Origin: Bacteroidales bacterium
GTDB lineage: Bacteria > Bacteroidota > Bacteroidia > Bacteroidales > UBA932
Reading direction: 5' to 3'
Assembly: GCA_017561665.1 (NCBI GenBank)
Contig: JAFZBQ010000033.1
Span: forward strand, 1-47,515
DNA: 47,515 nucleotides
Both the position numbers and the translations under genes were made by a program. Positions 2,941 through 22,672 of the stretch are shown here, piece after piece; position 1 is the stretch's first letter; each line of letters opens with the position of its first letter. The notes beneath the pieces are model-generated. The model did not search any database and was not told the origin of the DNA. It was given only the letters and a program-made list of their open reading frames with translations.

Positions 2941-3831
2941 ATGACAATCACAGGCATAGGCGAAACCGTACTGGACATGGTATTCGAAAATATGCAGCCG
3001 AGGGCTGCCGTTCCGGGCGGCTCCACATTCAACGCTATGATATCGCTTGGCCGCACTGCCGGCCGCGACTTTTCCGCCACCGGACTGAGAATGGTGACAC
3101 AGATAGGCGACGATGCCGTCGGCGATATTGTCGTCTCGTTTATGGAAGAGAACGGAGTCGGCACAGAGGCGGTGAGAAGGGCGCACGGACAGACATCGGT
3201 TTCGATGGCAATGCTGGACGAGAGCCGCAATGCCAAATACGAGTTCTACCGTGACCTGAATATTCCAAGGTTTGAGGCGCCGGAGTTGGAATTCGCGCCT
3301 GGCGATATCGTCCTGTTCGGATCTTTCTTTGCCGTCAATCCCGAGACCCGTGAGCAGGTCCGTGCCATCATTCGCAAGGCGCGCCAAGCCGGCGCCACTG
3401 TCTATTACGACATCAATTTCCGCAAAAATCACAACGCCGCCGATTCGCCGCCTCAAATAGAAGAGAACATCGCCCTAAGCGATATAGTCCGCGGCTCGTC
3501 AGAGGATATCGAGGCGCTTTATGGCACCCAGGATGTCGCAGAGGTATATACTCAACACATATCACCGCTCTGCAGCAACTTTATCTGCACCAAAGGGGCG
3601 CGCGAGACGGAGGTATTCTCGCCCGGCTTCCGCCGCAGCTATCCGGTGCCGCAGGAGACGCCTGTGGTTAGTACAATAGGTGCCGGCGATAATTTTAACG
3701 CCGGCACCATATATGCCCTTATCAAATTCGGTAACCTGGACTGGGACGCCATTGTCCCCATCGCTCACAGTTTCTCTGCCAACGTCGTGGCCAGTCTCTA
3801 TAATTACGTGGATGCCGGTTTCAGGCCTTGA
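2941..3831 (+). CDS. PfkB family carbohydrate kinase
   Basis: A 296-residue ribokinase-family (PfkB) sugar kinase. The N-terminal substrate side shows 'GGSTFNAMISLGR' (residues 26-38), and the C-terminal signature has the catalytic Asp250 in TIGAGDNFNAG. It would phosphorylate a sugar such as fructose using ATP in the cytoplasm; the exact sugar cannot be read from the sequence. It is the last gene of the 1531-3831 cluster. Its 3' end overlaps the 3' end of the convergent acyltransferase gene by 11 bases, leaving no room for a terminator between them. Confidence 0.85.
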   Translation: MTITGIGETVLDMVFENMQPRAAVPGGSTFNAMISLGRTAGRDFSATGLRMVTQIGDDAVGDIVVSFMEENGVGTEAVRRAHGQTSVSMAMLDESRNAKYEFYRDLNIPRFEAPELEFAPGDIVLFGSFFAVNPETREQVRAIIRKARQAGATVYYDINFRKNHNAADSPPQIEENIALSDIVRGSSEDIEALYGTQDVAEVYTQHISPLCSNFICTKGARETEVFSPGFRRSYPVPQETPVVSTIGAGDNFNAGTIYALIKFGNLDWDAIVPIAHSFSANVVASLYNYVDAGFRP

Positions 3832-4930
3832 CCTTCTTTTCTCCGAACACGCACCAGCGGACGAGCGGTATGCGGCGGATAATCTCGTAAATCAGAGGCG
3901 AGAGTGTGAATACTGCTACTGCCAGAATAACGTACATAGCCCACGGCGGCAGTTGGGTGTACTGTTTCATCATATAGCCCAGGCTGGCGATTACCAGATA
4001 GTGAACGATATAGAGACCGAAGCTGCTCCGGGTCATATAGCCGGCGAACTTACCGGTATAGTCAAATTTGGCCTTGAACCATGCCATCAGCGCCAGGCAG
4101 GCCAGCCAGCCGTATATGCAATTCAGCGGGCTGCCAAGATACTGGGGAGAAGTATTGTCCTGACCGAATGTCGTAATTATCAACGCCGTTCCGGCTGCCA
4201 CTGCGGCGACCAGAAGCGGTATCCAAATCTTAGCCAGTTTCTCCTGAACCTGCTCGTGAGCAAAAACGAAGTAACCCAGCAGGAAAGGAATCAGATAGAA
4301 CAACGGCTTGTAGAGGTTCCAGAGACCGTCGGCGCTTTCTGGGCGGGGATTCTTTATCAATGTCTGCTCACCTGCCCAGAACAGCACGCCTAGCAGTATT
4401 ACCACCACCAGATTAGCCTTGCCGCACAAGTTGTAGAATTTGTCCTTGCTGTCGATTGCGCGTATCAGCAGAAGCACCAGGCAGAGCAGCCACAGCACCT
4501 GGATGAACCACAGAGGACCGGTGCCGCTGATGGACCACATAATGAACTTTGCCACTGCCGGCATCTCGCCAAAAGTACCTGCCTTTGCCGCCACGGCGGT
4601 ATTGAAATAGCCCACCATCCAGTGGAACACGAACAGACCGATGGTGCCGGGTACCAGCAGCTTGCGGGTACGGGCCCTGAACCACTCCCCCGCCGACTTC
4701 TTTTCCAGCGCATAGCGGGCGCTGATGCCTGCCAGGATGAACAGCAACGGCATAAAGAACGGATAGAGGATATACATCACGATATCCTGATACTGTTTTA
4801 CCTGCGGAAATTCTCCGAACCCGCCGATACCGCCAAATACGCCTTTGTTATTGTAGAAATAGATTACGTGGTAGAACAGCACCAGCAGCACAGTAACCCA
4901 GCGCAGATTGTCTATCCAATGCTTTCTCAT
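3821..4930 (-). CDS. Acyltransferase-3 family membrane protein
   Basis: A 369-residue polytopic membrane protein of the acyltransferase-3 family (OafA/NodX type). The N-terminus has the family hallmark: 'WIDNLRWVTVLLVLFYHVIYFY' spanning the first membrane helix with His21, followed by about nine more hydrophobic segments and a basic C-terminal tail. Such proteins O-acylate surface glycans or other cell-envelope acceptors at the inner membrane. The acceptor is unknown. Its start overlaps the stop of the upstream AbrB-like gene (ATGA), so the two are coupled. It converges with and overlaps the PfkB gene at its 3' end. Confidence 0.85.
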   Translation of the reverse strand: MRKHWIDNLRWVTVLLVLFYHVIYFYNNKGVFGGIGGFGEFPQVKQYQDIVMYILYPFFMPLLFILAGISARYALEKKSAGEWFRARTRKLLVPGTIGLFVFHWMVGYFNTAVAAKAGTFGEMPAVAKFIMWSISGTGPLWFIQVLWLLCLVLLLIRAIDSKDKFYNLCGKANLVVVILLGVLFWAGEQTLIKNPRPESADGLWNLYKPLFYLIPFLLGYFVFAHEQVQEKLAKIWIPLLVAAVAAGTALIITTFGQDNTSPQYLGSPLNCIYGWLACLALMAWFKAKFDYTGKFAGYMTRSSFGLYIVHYLVIASLGYMMKQYTQLPPWAMYVILAVAVFTLSPLIYEIIRRIPLVRWCVFGEKKVKA

Positions 4931-5136
4931 TTTGAAAGGCCCTCCATCGCCTGATCTATCGCACTTTGAAACACTTGCGTTTTGATAAGTGCCATCCCTC
5001 TCTGGTCTCCGAGTACCAGCAGGGCATCGCCCGGTTTGATGTCATAAAGCTTGCGGGCGTCGCGAGGAATCACAACCTGCCCTTTGTCACCCACCTTCAC
5101 TACTCCGAAGATGTATTTGCCTTCATTATCTTGCAT
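4927..5136 (-). CDS. AbrB/SpoVT-type DNA-binding protein
   Basis: A 69-residue protein with an AbrB-like swapped-hairpin fold: 'VVKVGDKGQVVIPRDARKLYDIKPGDALLVLGD' is the classic AbrB/MazE N-terminal motif. A frame from the GTG at 5163 would add nine residues, but that codon lies inside the minus-strand promoter element (5170-5163), so the ATG at 5136 (MQDNEGKYIF) is the better start. It is probably a transcriptional regulator, perhaps of its own two-gene operon with the acyltransferase. No toxin partner is adjacent, which argues against an antitoxin role. Confidence 0.8.
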   Translation of the reverse strand: MQDNEGKYIFGVVKVGDKGQVVIPRDARKLYDIKPGDALLVLGDQRGMALIKTQVFQSAIDQAMEGLSK

Positions 5137-5162
5137 ATGTGGTAAATGTTGGAAATTTCCCA

Positions 5163-5170
5163 CAAATATA
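5163..5170 (-). promoter_or_regulatory. -7 promoter element for the AbrB-like operon
   Basis: TATATTTG on the minus strand fits TAnnTTTG. Transcription would start near 5157, which rules against the upstream GTG and supports the ATG at 5136. Confidence 0.6.
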
Positions 5171-5200
5171 ACACTATTTCATTATTTCCAAAAAATTCGT

Positions 5201-5208
5201 TAACTTTA
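5201..5208 (+). promoter_or_regulatory. Probable -7 element for the GH97-glp operon
   Basis: TAACTTTA differs from TAnnTTTG only at the last base and is placed 30 bases before the ATG at 5239. It is divergent from the AbrB promoter, with 30 bases between the two elements. Confidence 0.45.
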
Positions 5209-5238
5209 TAGTTTAAGAACACAATTATCAAAAACTAC

Positions 5239-7200
5239 ATGAAAAAAGTGCTGATTACTGCCCTGGCCGCGCTTCTGGCCCTGTCTGTACAGGCAAAGGA
5301 TTACAAGATTTCATCTCCCGACGGAAGGATAAACGTAATGATTCAAAGCGGCTCCACCCTTTCCTGGAGCGTTTCAAAAGACGGTACGCAATTGATGGCG
5401 CCGTCTAAAATGTGCCTTACTCTTGCCGATGGCATCCAGTACGGCCCGAATGCCAAATTCCGTAAGGCACAGCGCAGCAGCGTATCTCAGACCCTGAAGG
5501 CGCAGAACTACAAGCGCAGCGAGGTCAAAGACAATTATAATCAGCTGAAACTTGTTTCAAAGCAGTTTGACCTGATATTCCGCGTGGCCGACGACGGCGT
5601 GGCATACAGATTCGTCACAAAGAAAGCAGAAACCATCGCTTCCGAGACTGCGGAATTCAATTTCCCCGACGACCCGATGGGTTGGATTCCCTACGTAAGG
5701 AACGGCGGCTCTTTTGAAAACCAATTCTTCAATTCGTTTGAGAATGTGTATTCCAACATACGCATTTCGGCATGGGACCCTACCCGTATGGCGTTCCTGC
5801 CGGTGACCCTTGAATCAACCGCCGGCCCCAGAATCTGCATCACCGAATCCGACCTGCTCAACTATCCCGGAATGTACCTTTGCAACCGAAACGGCGGCAC
5901 CGGCCTGGAGGCGATGTTTGCCGGCTATCCCAAGACCATCGTCCAGGGCGGCCACAACATGCTGCAGGGTGTAATCACCTCCCGCGAACCCTACATTTAC
6001 AAAGGCGAAAAGGGCGAGGAACTCCCCTGGAGGGTGATGGTAATCACCGACGATGACGCCTCGCTGGCCGACAACGACCTCGTATGGCGCCTGGCAAAGC
6101 CATCGGAAGGCGATTTCTCGTGGGTAAAGCCCGGCAAGGTGGCGTGGGACTGGTGGAACGACTGGAATATCAAGGGAGTTGATTTCGCTTCCGGCATCAA
6201 CAACGACACATACAAGTATTATATAGATTTTGCTGCGGCCCACGGCGTGGAATATGTGATTCTGGACGAAGGCTGGGCGGTAAACCTGCAGGCCGACCTG
6301 ATGCAGGTGGTGCCTGAAATTGACCTGCCGATGCTCAGCCGCTACGCCATCGAGCGCGGCGTCAAACTGGTGCTCTGGGCCGGTTACTGGGCCTTCAACC
6401 GCGATATGGAAGGGGTCTGCAAGCACTACAGCGAGATGGGCATCGCCGGCTGGAAAATCGACTTTATGAATCGCGACGACCAGCCGATGGTGGCCTTCTA
6501 CGAGCAGGCCGCCCGCACCGCCGCAAAGTATCATCAGTTCGTCGATTTCCACGGCGCGTTCAAGCCCGCCGGCCTGATACGCACCTGGCCAAACGTCCTC
6601 AATTTCGAAGGAGTGAACGGCCTTGAGCAACTCAAGTGGATGGGGCCGGAATATGACGAGGTTACCTACGATGTCACAATACCTTTCACCCGCCTGGTGG
6701 CCGGCCCGTGCGACTACACCCAGGGCGCGATGCGCAACGCCATAAAGGCGAATTACTACCCTTGCGACAACGAGCCGATGAGCCAGGGCACCCGCTGCCG
6801 TCAGCTGGCGGAATACATAGTGTTTGACGCACCTTTCACGATGTTGTGCGACTCCCCCACCAACTATGAGGCAGAGGAGGAATGCACCCGCTTCATCGCC
6901 TCCGTCCCCACTGTCTGGGACGAGACCATAGCTTTGGACGGCCGCATCGGCGACTATGTCGTGATGGCCCGCCGCAGCGGCGGCAAGTGGTATCTGGCCG
7001 CAATGACCGACTGGGACGCACGGGACATCACCATCAAACTGCCTTTCGAGGCTGCTGACGGCACCGAAGCCACCCTCTGGCGCGACGGCGTCAATGCCCA
7101 CCGCAACGGCCAGGACTACCGTAAGGAGGCCGTCAAGGTCAGCGGCGGCGAAGTCAAGGTTCACCTGGCGCCCGGCGGCGGCTGTGTAGTTGTTTTCTAA
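5239..7200 (+). CDS. GH97 family alpha-glycosidase, probable retaining type
   Basis: A 653-residue exported glycoside hydrolase of family 97. Residues 1-19 are a signal peptide (cleavage after VQA). The N-terminal beta-sandwich starts 'SPDGRINVMI', the catalytic (beta/alpha)8 barrel begins near 'WDWWNDWN' (303-310) and contains 'GWKIDFMNRDDQ' with Asp408 and 'VDFHGAFKP' with Gly439. Known inverting members such as SusB use glutamate bases, whereas retaining members use an aspartate nucleophile in the KIDFM motif and lack a base glutamate. Asp408 with Gly439 therefore suggests the retaining, alpha-galactosidase-like branch; this is inference by motif. It is followed after 9 bases by glpA, so its product is probably linked to glycerol metabolism. 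Confidence 0.88.
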   Translation: MKKVLITALAALLALSVQAKDYKISSPDGRINVMIQSGSTLSWSVSKDGTQLMAPSKMCLTLADGIQYGPNAKFRKAQRSSVSQTLKAQNYKRSEVKDNYNQLKLVSKQFDLIFRVADDGVAYRFVTKKAETIASETAEFNFPDDPMGWIPYVRNGGSFENQFFNSFENVYSNIRISAWDPTRMAFLPVTLESTAGPRICITESDLLNYPGMYLCNRNGGTGLEAMFAGYPKTIVQGGHNMLQGVITSREPYIYKGEKGEELPWRVMVITDDDASLADNDLVWRLAKPSEGDFSWVKPGKVAWDWWNDWNIKGVDFASGINNDTYKYYIDFAAAHGVEYVILDEGWAVNLQADLMQVVPEIDLPMLSRYAIERGVKLVLWAGYWAFNRDMEGVCKHYSEMGIAGWKIDFMNRDDQPMVAFYEQAARTAAKYHQFVDFHGAFKPAGLIRTWPNVLNFEGVNGLEQLKWMGPEYDEVTYDVTIPFTRLVAGPCDYTQGAMRNAIKANYYPCDNEPMSQGTRCRQLAEYIVFDAPFTMLCDSPTNYEAEEECTRFIASVPTVWDETIALDGRIGDYVVMARRSGGKWYLAAMTDWDARDITIKLPFEAADGTEATLWRDGVNAHRNGQDYRKEAVKVSGGEVKVHLAPGGGCVVVF

Positions 7201-17362: not shown

Positions 17363-17402
17363 CTCAAAATAATGTTAAAAACCTTGAATTGTGAAAAATT
17401 AT

Positions 17403-17410
17403 TACCTTTA
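17403..17410 (+). promoter_or_regulatory. Probable -7 element for the EF-hand lipoprotein gene
   Basis: TACCTTTA is one base off the consensus TAnnTTTG and lies 25 bases before the ATG at 17435. Confidence 0.45.
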
Positions 17411-17434
17411 CATAAAATAAGTTTAAACCGCCCT

Positions 17435-18124
17435 ATGAAGCGTCTGATGACATACGGATTGGCTTTGCTGCTCGCACTTTCGTGCGCCGGAATAGAGCAG
17501 CCGGAAGTCTTGAACGACGACAAGGCTCTGGACGGCTGGTGGTACCTGGCTTATCTTTACGATCAGGAGAACCTTTCGTCGGGGGAGAAACTCCTCTTTG
17601 ACATGAAGTACACGGCAGAAGACACTTGGGAGTGGCGGCATATCGTAGGCACCAATTTCACCGCATACGAGCTTGGCTTCTATATCGGATACGAAACCGA
17701 CCCCGAGACTGGCGACATAGTGACCATAGACAATAAAAAACGTGTCGAGGAACATCTGCCGCAACAGATGTTTTCGTCGCTATTCATGAGTCCGGGGCCT
17801 TATGGAAATTGCATTCCGTACACGACCAATGAGGACGGCGACCGTCTGGACACATACTCAAACATGGAAGTCGGCGACGATACCATCTCCCTTATCTGCA
17901 CGGGCGGACCCTACTCTTTTGACTGGATTGACAGTGACACTGCCGCCGACCTGAATTATGACGGCAAAATAGACTATTTTGACATGTTCTGGCAGTTCCG
18001 CACCCCAAACATACCCCAGCAGATCGAGGGGGTCTACCCCACCACTTTCAAGGTCACCAATATATGGAAACGCGCAGACGAGGCGACCTTCCAAAACTGG
18101 AAAAACACTCTAGAAAATCTTTAA
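17435..18124 (+). CDS. Lipoprotein of unknown function with an EF-hand-like loop
   Basis: A 229-residue lipoprotein (lipobox LALSC, Cys17). I do not recognise a family. The N-terminal part is acidic and rich in aromatic residues ('LDGWWYLAYLYDQENL'), in the style of Bacteroidales lipocalin-like or domain-of-unknown-function lipoproteins. Near the C-terminus 'DLNYDGKIDYFD' matches a calcium-binding EF-hand/dockerin loop (DxNxDGxID). I chose the ATG at 17435, not the in-frame ATG at 17372, because only the former gives a proper signal peptide and lies downstream of the promoter-like element. It is followed after 12 bases by a small membrane protein gene. Confidence 0.75.
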   Translation: MKRLMTYGLALLLALSCAGIEQPEVLNDDKALDGWWYLAYLYDQENLSSGEKLLFDMKYTAEDTWEWRHIVGTNFTAYELGFYIGYETDPETGDIVTIDNKKRVEEHLPQQMFSSLFMSPGPYGNCIPYTTNEDGDRLDTYSNMEVGDDTISLICTGGPYSFDWIDSDTAADLNYDGKIDYFDMFWQFRTPNIPQQIEGVYPTTFKVTNIWKRADEATFQNWKNTLENL

Positions 18125-18136
18125 AACCAAATAGTT

Positions 18137-18322
18137 ATGGCAAGTTTAATTTACATTATCGGCGTTGTCCTCTCTATAATTGCAGTATTGGACATCCTCA
18201 AGAAACCCATCTCCCTGGTGGGCAAGATTATCTCCTGCATCCTGGTTCTGGCACTCAGCTGGGTCGGCCTGCTCATCTACTTCCTGTATGCACGCGACCG
18301 CCTCACCAAGTGGTTCAAATAG
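18137..18322 (+). CDS. Small PLDc_N-like membrane protein
   Basis: A 61-residue protein with two membrane helices (about 4-20 and 29-50) and a basic tail. The pattern 'ILKKPISLVGKIISCILVLALSWVGLLIYFLYARDRL' resembles the phospholipase D-nuclease N-terminal domain, which is often found alone as a short membrane protein of unknown role. It is probably co-transcribed with the lipoprotein upstream; an intrinsic terminator follows. Confidence 0.75.
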   Translation: MASLIYIIGVVLSIIAVLDILKKPISLVGKIISCILVLALSWVGLLIYFLYARDRLTKWFK

Positions 18323-18372: not shown

Positions 18373-20064
18373 TTAGAAGATGTAATTGAGGGCGATGTAC
18401 AAGGCGCTGTCGCCGTCGGTCTTTTTGAACGGCCTGGCCCATTCTGCCGATATTATGAAGTTGGTGTTCATAACCAGCTTGAGTCCGGCACCGGCGCTGC
18501 AGTGCAGTTTGAGCGCCTCGGCCTTCAGGTCGTCTACCGGGCGTCCATAAAACCGCGCCAACTCCTCTCCTTTATATAATCTCGTGACCATCCCGGCGTC
18601 GAACAGTGGATTGGTGGCCACGTACCAGTTCTGGCCGATGAACTTGAAATCGAACAGCCTGATTCGCAGTTCGCTGTTCATCCAGGCGTAACTGTCACCC
18701 ACCAGCCTCTGTGCGAGAAGGCCGCGGACGGTATTGATGCCGCCCAGGCCGTCGGTGCAGGTCTGGCGAAGGAACAGGGTGCTGATGTTCTGCATACTGT
18801 AGAACGGCGCACAGCCGGCCACAGTTCCCTGGTATGCCAGGTGATAGGCAAACACCATACGGTCAGGCCAAAGCGAAACGTACTGGCGCAGATGTGCCGC
18901 CAGTCTAAGATAATTGTAGCCGTCTCCGAACAAGTCGGGTGAGCCGTTCAGATATGCTTCGGCCCAAAGGCCGCGGTTGGGAGCCGATTCATTGTCGCGG
19001 GTATCCAGCACCAAACCCGCCTTCATCTCCAGGCGATGGCCGCCGGTGGCCTCGCTTCCTTCAAATACGCCGGCCTCGCACATCTGATGATACAGCGTTT
19101 GAGTAGGGTCATAGACCTCGTAATACTTCTTTGTCTCCTTGTCTTTCTTCTTCAGATCGATATCGTCCAGACCATAGTACCAGTAGCTAACGCCGCCGAC
19201 CCAGTTCAGGTGCGGAACTATCTGACCCTGAAAATCTGCCAGTACACGCACCATAGAGCGCTTATAAGCATATCGTGCCTCGCGGGTCTTTTCATTGGCA
19301 TCGCGCGACTTGTCATAAGCCTCCAGACCGTTCAGGCCATAGAAGAGGAACATAGGGTCGTACTGATAACTGGCGGAGAATGTGGTGCGGATGCCCGGAA
19401 TCAGATAGCGCGAATCGAACTGGCCGTGAAGCAGCGTCTGGCCGCCGGTATAGCGCGACGCCTCCACGTACATCCGTTGCAGATATTCGGGATAAATCTT
19501 GCCGTAATTGAAGATATCGGCGCAGACTCCGTACTGGAGGCCCAGGTCGGAGTTGTAGCTGACGCACGGCAGAATACCGATATTCCACCCTTCCACCTTC
19601 TCATCTTCTCCGGCGAAAGCCGTTCCGGAAAGGGCCAGCAAAGCAATCACTGCAGCGACTTTTGCGCTCTCGCGGTTGTCCACCTTCTTCCCGTAGACCA
19701 CGTATCTTTGGAACAGGAACTCGGTTACAAGATTGGCAAACATACACAGGAACAGCACCAGATACTCGTTCCAGTGCAGCGTTTCGGTCAGGTAGTCGCC
19801 ACCCCAGGTGCTCAGGGGCGTGAAAACCGCGTAGTAGCATATCACCTTGAACATCGCAACCGGAACGTTAGCGGTGCTCTTGAAGGTGAACCGGCGGTTC
19901 AAGGTAAAGTTCCACACCACCGACAGTGTCAGCGCAATCAAATAACACGGCCAGTAGCGCCAGCCGGTAAATTCGTTAAGCAGTGCGAAGGATATGGTCT
20001 GAATCAGACCGGCGCTCATAGAGAACAGCAGGAACTTGATGGCCCTTATAAACTCCTTATTCAT
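18373..20064 (-). CDS. GtrA-like inner-membrane domain fused to outer-membrane barrel
   Basis: A 563-residue fusion. Residues 1-127 form a GtrA-like domain with four membrane helices ('RAIKFLLFSMSAGLIQTISF', 'WNFTLNRRFTFKS', 'LFLCMFANLVTEFLFQRYVVYGKK'). Residues about 128-151 look like a complete signal peptide: charged KKVDNRESAK, hydrophobic VAAVIALLALSG, and cleavage motif TAFA. Residues 152-563 form an Omp85-like barrel paralogous to the 15945-17324 protein, ending in phenylalanine (LNYIF). No stop lies between the halves. A GTG at 19683 could start the barrel separately. The gene overlaps the acyl-CoA synthetase stop by 8 bases. GtrA proteins usually help move lipid-linked sugars across the inner membrane; the role here is unknown. 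Confidence 0.85.
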   Translation of the reverse strand: MNKEFIRAIKFLLFSMSAGLIQTISFALLNEFTGWRYWPCYLIALTLSVVWNFTLNRRFTFKSTANVPVAMFKVICYYAVFTPLSTWGGDYLTETLHWNEYLVLFLCMFANLVTEFLFQRYVVYGKKVDNRESAKVAAVIALLALSGTAFAGEDEKVEGWNIGILPCVSYNSDLGLQYGVCADIFNYGKIYPEYLQRMYVEASRYTGGQTLLHGQFDSRYLIPGIRTTFSASYQYDPMFLFYGLNGLEAYDKSRDANEKTREARYAYKRSMVRVLADFQGQIVPHLNWVGGVSYWYYGLDDIDLKKKDKETKKYYEVYDPTQTLYHQMCEAGVFEGSEATGGHRLEMKAGLVLDTRDNESAPNRGLWAEAYLNGSPDLFGDGYNYLRLAAHLRQYVSLWPDRMVFAYHLAYQGTVAGCAPFYSMQNISTLFLRQTCTDGLGGINTVRGLLAQRLVGDSYAWMNSELRIRLFDFKFIGQNWYVATNPLFDAGMVTRLYKGEELARFYGRPVDDLKAEALKLHCSAGAGLKLVMNTNFIISAEWARPFKKTDGDSALYIALNYIF

Positions 20065-21766
20065 TTTCTTCAGCCTCCAGTTTAGTATAAGCCACTTTGC
20101 CGACCAGCGTCGTGGGGAGCGAATCGCGCACCTCTATCTCGCTTGGCATCGCATATTTTGCAATCTGATGGCGGCAATGCTCCATAATGCTCTCGCGCAG
20201 CTGCTCGGAATCTTCGTAGCCCGGCTTGAGCACCAGGAACGCCTTTACGCGATGCATCTTGTACGGGTCGCGAACCCCTATCACGCAGCTGCGCTGCACG
20301 GCGGGATGACCCTCCAGGATATTCTCTATCTGGGAAGGATATACGTTGTAGCCGCTGGTCACTATCATCCTCTTGATGCGCTGGCGGAAATATATGAAGC
20401 CTTCGGAATCCATCACGCCCAGGTCGCCTGTATGGAGCCATACGTGACCGTCGGCGTGCAGGCGCATAGTCTCTGCATTTTCCTTTTCGTGATTGATGTA
20501 GCCCAGCATCATCGAGGGGCCGGTCAGGCAGATTTCACCCTCCTCTCCGTAAGGCACCTCGTCGCAGGTTCCCGGTTTGCATATCTGGAAATATGTATCG
20601 GGATAAGGGATGCCGATGCTCCCCTCCTTCTCTTTGTTATAGGGTGTCAGGCAGCAGGCGGTGACGCACTCGGTGGTGCCATAGCCCTCGCGCACGCGGA
20701 CGCCGGCATTGTGGTCGGAGAGGAACTTGTCAAACTTTTTCTTGAGCTCTATCGTAAGAGAATCGCCGCCAGAGAAAACGCCTTTCAGGCAGCTCAGGTC
20801 GGCGCCGTCAAGATATTTGTTGCGGGTAATCGCCTCGAATAGCGTGGGCACGCCGGCAATTACGTTGGGACGGTTCTTCTTGATGAGGTTGGCGTAACTC
20901 TTGACGTTGAAACGGGGCACCAGTATGGCCGTGCCGCCCACCACCATCATAGTGTGGATGCACACGCCCAGGCCGAAGCCGTGGAATACCGGCATCGCCG
21001 CCAGCATCTTGGCGTGATGCACTTCAAAATTGGCCATGGCGCCGGTCTGCTGCCCAAGGGCGTTGAAGTTCAGGTCGGATAGCATGATACCCTTGGTGGT
21101 GCCGGTGGTGCCGCCGGAGAAGAGTACGACCGCCTCCTTGGTGTAGTCCTTATCGGCCACATAGCCCTCTTTCACACTTTCGGCGCCCTTTATAAAATCT
21201 TTCCAGAGAATCACGTTGCCTTCGCTCTTGATCTTGGGGAACTTGCGCTCGGTGAGCAGTTTCTGTCCCAGGGAAAGCGGGAACGGCAGCTCTTCGGAGA
21301 CGCGGGCGATAATCAGCCTGGATATCGGGCGTATCTTCTCCACCTCAAGGAATTTGGAGTAGAATTGGTCCAGCGTGACGGCGATGTCGCACGAAGCCTC
21401 GTTCATATAGAAGGCGATCTCCGCCTCCGCCGAGAGCGGATGGACCATAGATGCCACGGCGCCGATACGGTTGAGGCCGTACAGGCAGTAGATTGCCTGC
21501 GGCACGTTGGGAAGGCAAATCAGCACCCGCTGCCCGGCACGGACGCCCAAGGCATAAAAGGCTCGGGCCACAAGGTCCAGGTTTTCTGCAACCGATTTGT
21601 ATGATATCTTGCGCCCCATAAAGGTAAGGCACGTGAAATCGCCCTCCCGTGCCGCCGTTTGAAGCACCGCGCCGGACATTGTGGTTTCCAGATAATCGAG
21701 ATGTGCAGGAACTTCTCCGTAGCTCTCGAGCCAGGGAGTCGCTATATTGTCGTATACGTACTTCAT
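20057..21766 (-). CDS. AMP-dependent acyl-CoA synthetase (fatty acid:CoA ligase)
   Basis: A 569-residue ANL-superfamily enzyme that activates a carboxylic acid, probably a fatty acid, to acyl-AMP and then acyl-CoA. The phosphate-binding loop 'FSGGTTGTTKG' is at residues 216-226, and the adenylate motif 'REGYGTTEC' and hinge region 'HTGDLGVMDSEGFIYFRQRIKRMI' are intact. The C-terminal lysine lies in 'LPTTLVGKVAYTKL'. The first 30 residues diverge from the usual N-terminus. It follows the CoA-acyltransferase-fold gene by 9 bases and overlaps the GtrA-barrel gene, so the three are probably one operon. Substrate chain length is not predictable. Confidence 0.9.
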   Translation of the reverse strand: MKYVYDNIATPWLESYGEVPAHLDYLETTMSGAVLQTAAREGDFTCLTFMGRKISYKSVAENLDLVARAFYALGVRAGQRVLICLPNVPQAIYCLYGLNRIGAVASMVHPLSAEAEIAFYMNEASCDIAVTLDQFYSKFLEVEKIRPISRLIIARVSEELPFPLSLGQKLLTERKFPKIKSEGNVILWKDFIKGAESVKEGYVADKDYTKEAVVLFSGGTTGTTKGIMLSDLNFNALGQQTGAMANFEVHHAKMLAAMPVFHGFGLGVCIHTMMVVGGTAILVPRFNVKSYANLIKKNRPNVIAGVPTLFEAITRNKYLDGADLSCLKGVFSGGDSLTIELKKKFDKFLSDHNAGVRVREGYGTTECVTACCLTPYNKEKEGSIGIPYPDTYFQICKPGTCDEVPYGEEGEICLTGPSMMLGYINHEKENAETMRLHADGHVWLHTGDLGVMDSEGFIYFRQRIKRMIVTSGYNVYPSQIENILEGHPAVQRSCVIGVRDPYKMHRVKAFLVLKPGYEDSEQLRESIMEHCRHQIAKYAMPSEIEVRDSLPTTLVGKVAYTKLEAEENE

Positions 21767-21775
21767 CGGTTCGGG

Positions 21776-22672
21776 TTAGTTCTCAAATTCTACGGGAGTG
21801 GCCGCATCCAGGTCAAGCAGCTCGGGGTGCGCAAACAGGTAGCGCATCAACTTCACTGTCTTGGAGAAGTAGTATCCGTCGGCGATACGCTCGTCCACCG
21901 TCAGGCCAAGCTTGATGGTGTTGCGAAGGTCGTAGGTGCCGTCCTCATGCCAGAACGGGCGGAGTTTCTTCTCGCTGATGACCATAAAGAATGATATATT
22001 GCCCCAGTCGAACAGATGGTGATAGTCGGCGTGAAGTTTGATGCTGCCCAGATTTGTCAGATATGCACTCGAGAAGCAGGGATCGTCCTTGGCCAGGGAC
22101 TTGGGATAGTGGCCGTAATACTCCAGCTTGTTGAGTGTCCAGGCGACCAGTTTGTAGATCGGTCTCGGGAGAACCTGGAGAATATTCATCGCTTTGGTGA
22201 TACCCACCACTTTATCTTCTTTGCGCACCTTGTGGACAAATTTCTGCACATAGTCGTGCACCTGTTCTATCGGAGCGCCACCCTCCGGATCTAGGACGAA
22301 CTTTGCAATCGCCTCTTCCGCCTCGTCGTTGAACTGGCGCTTTACATTGAAAGCAACAACTATTTTCTTGCGCTCGTAATACCGGTGGCCGGCGATGAAA
22401 TAGTTCATCTTGGGACGCAGCAGGAATGTCTTTGCCGTAACGGCCGTGATTACGTGGAACCAGGTGTACTTGAATTCGGGGTTCGATGCGTTCTTCTTCT
22501 CGAGATACTTGTCCACCTCCGTGAGGTCTATCACCTCTCCCATCACCGCCTCGTTTTTTGTCCTGGGACCCATTATGTAGGGCATCAGTATATGCAACGA
22601 ATCCAGTCCTGACACATAGTATGCGTCATACCGGTCCCGCCAGTTTCTCTTACGGGTTTTTGAATCTTCCAT
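21776..22672 (-). CDS. CoA-dependent acyltransferase-fold protein (E2/CAT-like) with altered active site
   Basis: A 298-residue protein with the fold of chloramphenicol acetyltransferase and 2-oxoacid dehydrogenase E2 catalytic domains, but with no lipoyl or peripheral-subunit-binding domain. The C-terminal active-site motif, normally HxxxDG, reads ExxxDG (Glu261 to Gly266 in 'LTVDERIADGYYFS'), so the general-base histidine is replaced. It may use a different base, a nearby histidine such as those in 'ADYHHLFDWG' (215-223), or be non-catalytic. It is the first gene of the operon with acyl-CoA synthetase and the GtrA-barrel fusion. Fold assignment is from motif resemblance. Confidence 0.65.
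   Translation of the reverse strand: MEDSKTRKRNWRDRYDAYYVSGLDSLHILMPYIMGPRTKNEAVMGEVIDLTEVDKYLEKKNASNPEFKYTWFHVITAVTAKTFLLRPKMNYFIAGHRYYERKKIVVAFNVKRQFNDEAEEAIAKFVLDPEGGAPIEQVHDYVQKFVHKVRKEDKVVGITKAMNILQVLPRPIYKLVAWTLNKLEYYGHYPKSLAKDDPCFSSAYLTNLGSIKLHADYHHLFDWGNISFFMVISEKKLRPFWHEDGTYDLRNTIKLGLTVDERIADGYYFSKTVKLMRYLFAHPELLDLDAATPVEFEN

Follow-up and report, generated by a model that had tools for sequence, protein, structure and literature searches.

A single open reading frame in the window, the whole 47,515-nt stretch of Bacteroidales DNA that was analysed, joins a GtrA-type inner-membrane protein to an Omp85-type outer-membrane barrel. Comparison with its nearest relative, the same-genus genome G023, shows, at the level of aligned sequence, that both genes were merged in frame by a deletion that corresponds to 44 nt of the G023 sequence. 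We give about an even chance to the full reading of a lineage-specific gene fusion by deletion, in which the barrel is freed by a signal peptidase I cut after Ala151.

The order of GtrA domain, signal-like stretch and Omp85 barrel in one frame (Table 1), as given in the preliminary description of this DNA, was borne out by the open reading frame and by the profile searches with Pfam and NCBIfam. In Pfam, GtrA_DPMS_TM (PF04138) matched residues 10–123 with 40.8 bits (cut-off 26.1) and Omp85 (PF01103) residues 223–553 with 40.6 bits (cut-off 24), and the NCBIfam model NF047779 ('Omp85 family outer membrane protein') matched residues 157–563 with 282.4 bits (cut-off 200). As both domains score above the curated cut-offs and each half has orthologues with 80–91% identity in genomes of the same genus, the fused frame is more than a chance observation.

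Table 1: Features of the fused gene and its surroundings (positions in the window).
Feature	Position	Strand	Evidence or remark
Fused ORF, 563 aa	18373..20064	minus	single open frame from the ATG at 20064 to a stop codon whose last base is 18373
GtrA/DPMS transmembrane domain, residues 1–127, four predicted helices	19684..20064	minus	PF04138, model, K/R pattern
In-frame GTG, codon 128, proposed internal start	19681..19683	minus	non-GTG in 4 of 7 relatives
Signal-peptide-like stretch, residues 128–151	19612..19683	minus	alignment with signal peptides of separate barrels, charge, hydropathy, helix 131–145 in model
Fusion junction, about codons 135/136	19657..19662	minus	comparison with G023
Omp85-type barrel without POTRA, residues 152–563 and stop	18373..19611	minus	NF047779, invariant columns, model, BamA/TamA fold
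Second, separate Omp85-family barrel, 459 aa	15945..17324	minus	paralogue of the fused barrel, with a usual signal peptide at its N-terminus
Upstream acyl-CoA ligase (AMP-binding)	20057..21766	minus	overlaps the fused ORF by 8 nt
Upstream protein with weak 2-oxoacid dehydrogenase acyltransferase domain match	21776..22672	minus	below Pfam cut-off

Relatives were covered by a protein search in 198 related genomes plus the 26 genomes of the genus (the window's included) and by a scan of genome contigs, from which the best 80 of 579 GtrA loci were taken. Of the other 25 genomes in the genus, five have a gtrA orthologue (G016, G017, G018, G021 and G023), and each time the barrel adjoins it as a separate match. 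Among the best 80 of the 579 loci the GtrA frame ends at residue 124–155 in every case, and a barrel follows in five; loci L062–L064 were taken as the same records as G023, G016 and G017, and L065 and L066 are new, which gives seven other genomes with the pair. In all seven the pair consists of two genes and in none is it fused. They overlap in different frames by 1 nt in G023, 4 nt in G018 and L066, 10 nt in G016 and G021 and 56 nt in G017; in L065 a gap of 24 nt lies between the gtrA stop and the barrel ATG (assigned in this analysis), both in the same frame. The 56-nt overlap of the two frames in G017 is found at 2632–2687 of locus L004 and means that the GtrA tail there is read out of the signal-peptide sequence of the barrel. 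Overlaps of 1 or 4 nt are a layout associated with translational coupling, as described in an excerpt of PMC10666635. The idea of a gene designed to give two products was not borne out, with a separate stop and start in every other genome that has the pair, and the 1:1 ratio expected from a single mRNA is nothing special, as the two genes overlap by 1–56 nt in six of the seven relatives.

The GtrA of G023 is 91% identical to that of the window. Between GtrA codon 135 and the barrel signal peptide 44 nt of G023 are absent in the window, and in G023 these hold the last residues and the stop of GtrA together with the ATG and first codons of the barrel. Part of what the preliminary description had named as counting against its reading, a stop codon and a separate start between the halves in related genomes, is thus present, although a deletion lies behind it; a frameshift is ruled out because the two frames meet in a clean 44-nt gap relative to G023. 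For a random deletion the in-frame outcome alone has one chance in three, and an out-of-frame loss would remove the barrel start. In the relatives gtrA and the barrel gene sit side by side where a tight operon ends, and their ends overlap or lie close together; compared with them, a deletion in the window lineage has taken the end and stop of GtrA together with the barrel start and joined the remainder in frame, so that what remains of the barrel signal peptide now sits after the fourth helix and basic tail of GtrA.

Another origin, in which recombination would have brought in the barrel half from a different species, is not supported by identities in 200-nt segments: the window and G023 are among the best or tied on either side of the junction (76–77% across it), and their identity falls below that of other relatives only at about 19300–18801. 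G017 and G018 are 88–99% identical in the ligase and 94–99% in the barrel, yet 71–75% in gtrA and 51–70% in the junction and signal peptide, a contrast seen in loci L003 (G018) and L004 (G017) over the region matching window positions 20093–19582. Judging from these identities, gtrA with the junction and the barrel signal peptide has been exchanged as a block. The junction is therefore a changeable spot in the genus, and a fusion at this site is less surprising.

At the junction, residues 128–135 (VDNRESAK) are a remnant of the GtrA tail, and residues 136–151 (VAAVIALLALSGTAFA) form an uncharged h/c-region kept from the barrel's own signal peptide, with Gly152 next. By inspection and Kyte–Doolittle hydropathy the basic n-region, the hydrophobic h-region and the A-x-A site are all present. 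Residues 119–135 carry five K/R and two D/E, and the 19-mer 133–151 has a mean hydropathy of 1.74, as high as the top GtrA helix segment (1.70). In five relatives of the same genus the barrel signal peptide ends with A-x-A before Gly, in the same column as A-F-A|G of the window. The n-region of the window contains two acidic residues, both within VDNRESAK, and it lacks the M-K-K/R with which the barrels usually start. The position is also different, as the stretch occupies residues 128–151 of 563 and is N-terminal in the separate barrels of the relatives. On this alignment the 'internal signal peptide' of the preliminary description is the N-terminal signal peptide of the barrel minus Met and first residues, stranded by the fusion.

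A model of residues 1–177 (mean pLDDT 80.3) has five helices, of which four make up GtrA (2–33, 37–59, 67–95 and 100–123) and the fifth covers residues 131–145. The GtrA part of the full-length model (18–128, pLDDT <50) is meaningless, as the underlying alignment had no GtrA rows. K/R counts of three at the N-terminus, one, four and none in loops 1 to 3 and five in the tail predict an N-in/C-in topology. The argument that the C-terminus of GtrA lies inside is thus in line with both the K/R pattern and the helix model. No structure matched the GtrA model in Foldseek at E 0.001, and the best solved structural match was a dolichyl-phosphate mannose synthase, a weak one (E 0.91). According to an excerpt of PMC7389260, GtrA/DPMS members are small and hydrophobic with three to four predicted transmembrane helices, are linked to cell-surface polysaccharides and are thought to flip lipid-linked sugars. 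The window protein resembles this family (PF04138) in passing the curated score, in its four helices and in its N-in/C-in charges, and differs from it in a shortened C-terminal tail that runs on into an exported barrel.

The barrel model has 16 strands, the first at residue 159, and ends with the C-terminal Phe563; comparison of structure models gave a fold of the BamA/TamA type. All invariant columns of a 29-row barrel alignment are present in the window barrel, among them R447-G448, which we take to be the motif at the tip of Omp85 loop 6. Among PDB sequences the barrel profile had no hit at E 0.1. POTRA domains are absent, since the first strand begins seven residues past the predicted cut, and it is this absence that places the barrel in the 'noNterm' subgroup of Omp85 proteins (Heinz and Lithgow 2014), with which it shares a 16-stranded BamA/TamA-type barrel. 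The 28 other aligned barrels are separate genes, 27 of them beginning with a signal peptide-like stretch, whereas in the window a polytopic inner-membrane protein carries the barrel as its C-terminal half. The dN/dS of the window barrel is 0.049–0.120 against six relatives and 0.042–0.123 in the other 15 pairs, values which, with dS saturated (1.15–2.45 in the window pairs), are a long-time average and say little about selection since the fusion.

For processing we propose that GtrA would be inserted by SRP/Sec with both termini in the cytoplasm and that the old h-region would enter the translocon as a fifth, N-in/C-out segment. As the C-terminus of GtrA is predicted inside, the next hydrophobic stretch is oriented like a signal peptide. 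Signal peptidase I would then cut after Ala151 and the barrel would cross the periplasm to BAM. An uncut barrel, in the model tethered to the inner membrane by seven residues (152–158), could hardly reach the outer membrane; as the first strand starts at 159, nothing is left to bridge the periplasm, and for the fused product cleavage is the one evident route to a working barrel. In E. coli, a polytopic protein engineered to carry a signal peptidase I site behind an internal membrane segment released its passenger, as reported in an excerpt of PMC5449189, which makes the cleavage step feasible. That the living lineage makes one GtrA/Omp85 polyprotein, split by signal peptidase I at the stranded signal peptide, and that the overlapping genes of the relatives represent the step before it, is a joint reading that we put forward tentatively, at a little under an even chance.

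This reading has to be weighed against an error of consensus or assembly, or a minority strain variant, with two genes in the living population. The fusion is unique among the eight genomes with the pair, it comes from a draft genome (127 contigs, 89.9% complete, 2.98% contamination), and the nearest relatives are rumen metagenome assemblies, as the window genome probably is too. However, a clean in-frame loss of 44-nt size is unusual as a short-read error, and 26 sense-strand genes of the window each match one ORF of G021 with lengths within 30 residues and none broken; by the same length test, G016 has two genes that seem broken and G023 has one. The window gene at 1531–2478 is shorter than its G023 counterpart (315 vs 431 aa). 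The low dN/dS and the intact state of both the barrel and its neighbours speak against a pseudogene or a poor assembly. We regard an artefact as unlikely and the fusion as probably the true chromosomal state. The DUF3667 protein encoded at 1531–2478 is without about 114 N-terminal residues of the G023 protein and its gene adjoins a GNAT gene placed elsewhere in G023, which indicates a local rearrangement or a truncation.

Should the fusion be real, the barrel half might still not be released but stay uncleaved or misfolded and be degraded, the lineage living with GtrA and the second barrel. The n-region is poorer than in the relatives, another Omp85-family barrel lies 1 kb off, and decay might not yet be visible if the fusion is young, a point on which dS gives no resolution. 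We nevertheless find this outcome distinctly unlikely, as the frame of the barrel is unbroken and retains every invariant column of the 29 rows, dN/dS is low, the h-region and the A-F-A|G site are well kept and the other barrel is only about 43% identical to the fused one. The preliminary description had further proposed that the GTG at 19683 could start the barrel alone, which would give an ordinary N-terminal signal (MDNRESAKVAAVIALLALSGTAFA). This GTG is indeed in frame and is the last in-frame ATG, GTG or TTG that spares the whole h-region, other candidates lying within GtrA (103–122), within the h-region (139 and 142) or past it (157). It is not a conserved start but a Val codon of the GtrA tail: the equivalent codon is GTG in three of the five same-genus relatives, GTA in G023 and GTT in G017, and ACC in L065 and ATC in L066, the two others. 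The real barrel starts of the relatives are ATG, mostly followed by K/R. We thus consider separate synthesis from this codon very unlikely.

A known parallel to the polyprotein reading is FbcH of Bradyrhizobium, a cytochrome b/c1 precursor which is cut at an internal signal peptide and whose processing has been shown. As in the window, a single gene encodes an inner-membrane part and an exported part with an internal signal peptide between them; in FbcH, however, the partner is a membrane-anchored cytochrome and not an outer-membrane barrel, and processing in the window is a prediction. The new part compared with known processed fusions such as FbcH is therefore the outer-membrane barrel as partner. 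Conservation of the fusion among relatives, as for an FbcH-type processed fusion, was not found in the seven other genomes with the pair. The actinobacterial Rieske protein Sco2149 exports its C-terminal domain by an internal N-in/C-out Tat signal after its helices, and a reporter was set free from proteins of this type once a signal peptidase I site had been added, both according to excerpts of PMC5449189 and PMC13186574. There the signal is a twin-arginine one and the cofactor domain stays anchored, whereas the window stretch has no RR motif.

No GtrA-Omp85 fusion was found in the literature searched, which lay mostly outside subscription journals. A survey for a second fusion of GtrA to an exported protein found PF04138 matches in 205 of 398 genomes, and among the matches listed frames of more than 250 aa occurred in G346, G372, G313, G022, G035 and G309. 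The first two and G022 were read and contain no such fusion, a count that refers to these three. In G346 and G372 the frame is open upstream by chance, and GtrA lies at its end. Among the frames read, the nearest C-terminal GtrA fusion is that of G022, with an acyltransferase on the cytosolic side. This 448-aa protein of the same genus is encoded at 770–2116 of locus L143. If real and processed, the fusion in the window would be a natural experiment on whether an entire polytopic protein can replace the n-region of an outer-membrane protein signal peptide, and would mean that overlapping operon genes can merge by one deletion with neither product lost. If it is a variant of a draft genome, it is a warning that fused architectures from single drafts need a check in relatives.

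Concerning the neighbourhood, the upstream ligase is present in 16 of the 26 genus genomes at E 1e-100, and the protein with the weak acyltransferase match is also a neighbour in L062–L064. G006 has the ligase with 86% identity and no gtrA match of the window kind; at 3218–6814 of its locus L169, genes for SLBB/Poly_export polysaccharide export and Wzz-like proteins lie between the ligase and a more distant barrel. The slot between ligase and barrel thus seems to be a variable site for envelope polysaccharide functions, which would be fitting for a GtrA protein. Among the best 80 of the 579 GtrA loci (L062–L141), GtrA relatives with 60–73% identity are found in records titled Oscillospiraceae, Lachnospiraceae, Clostridiales, others and Bacteroidales, suggesting either transfer of GtrA across phyla or mislabelled bins. 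On the other side of the fused gene, the plus strand at 17372–18322 encodes a secreted-looking protein of 250 aa without a Pfam match and a small membrane protein of 61 aa that is PLDc_N-like below cut-off. These genes separate the two barrels of the window, and in G023 both barrels adjoin.
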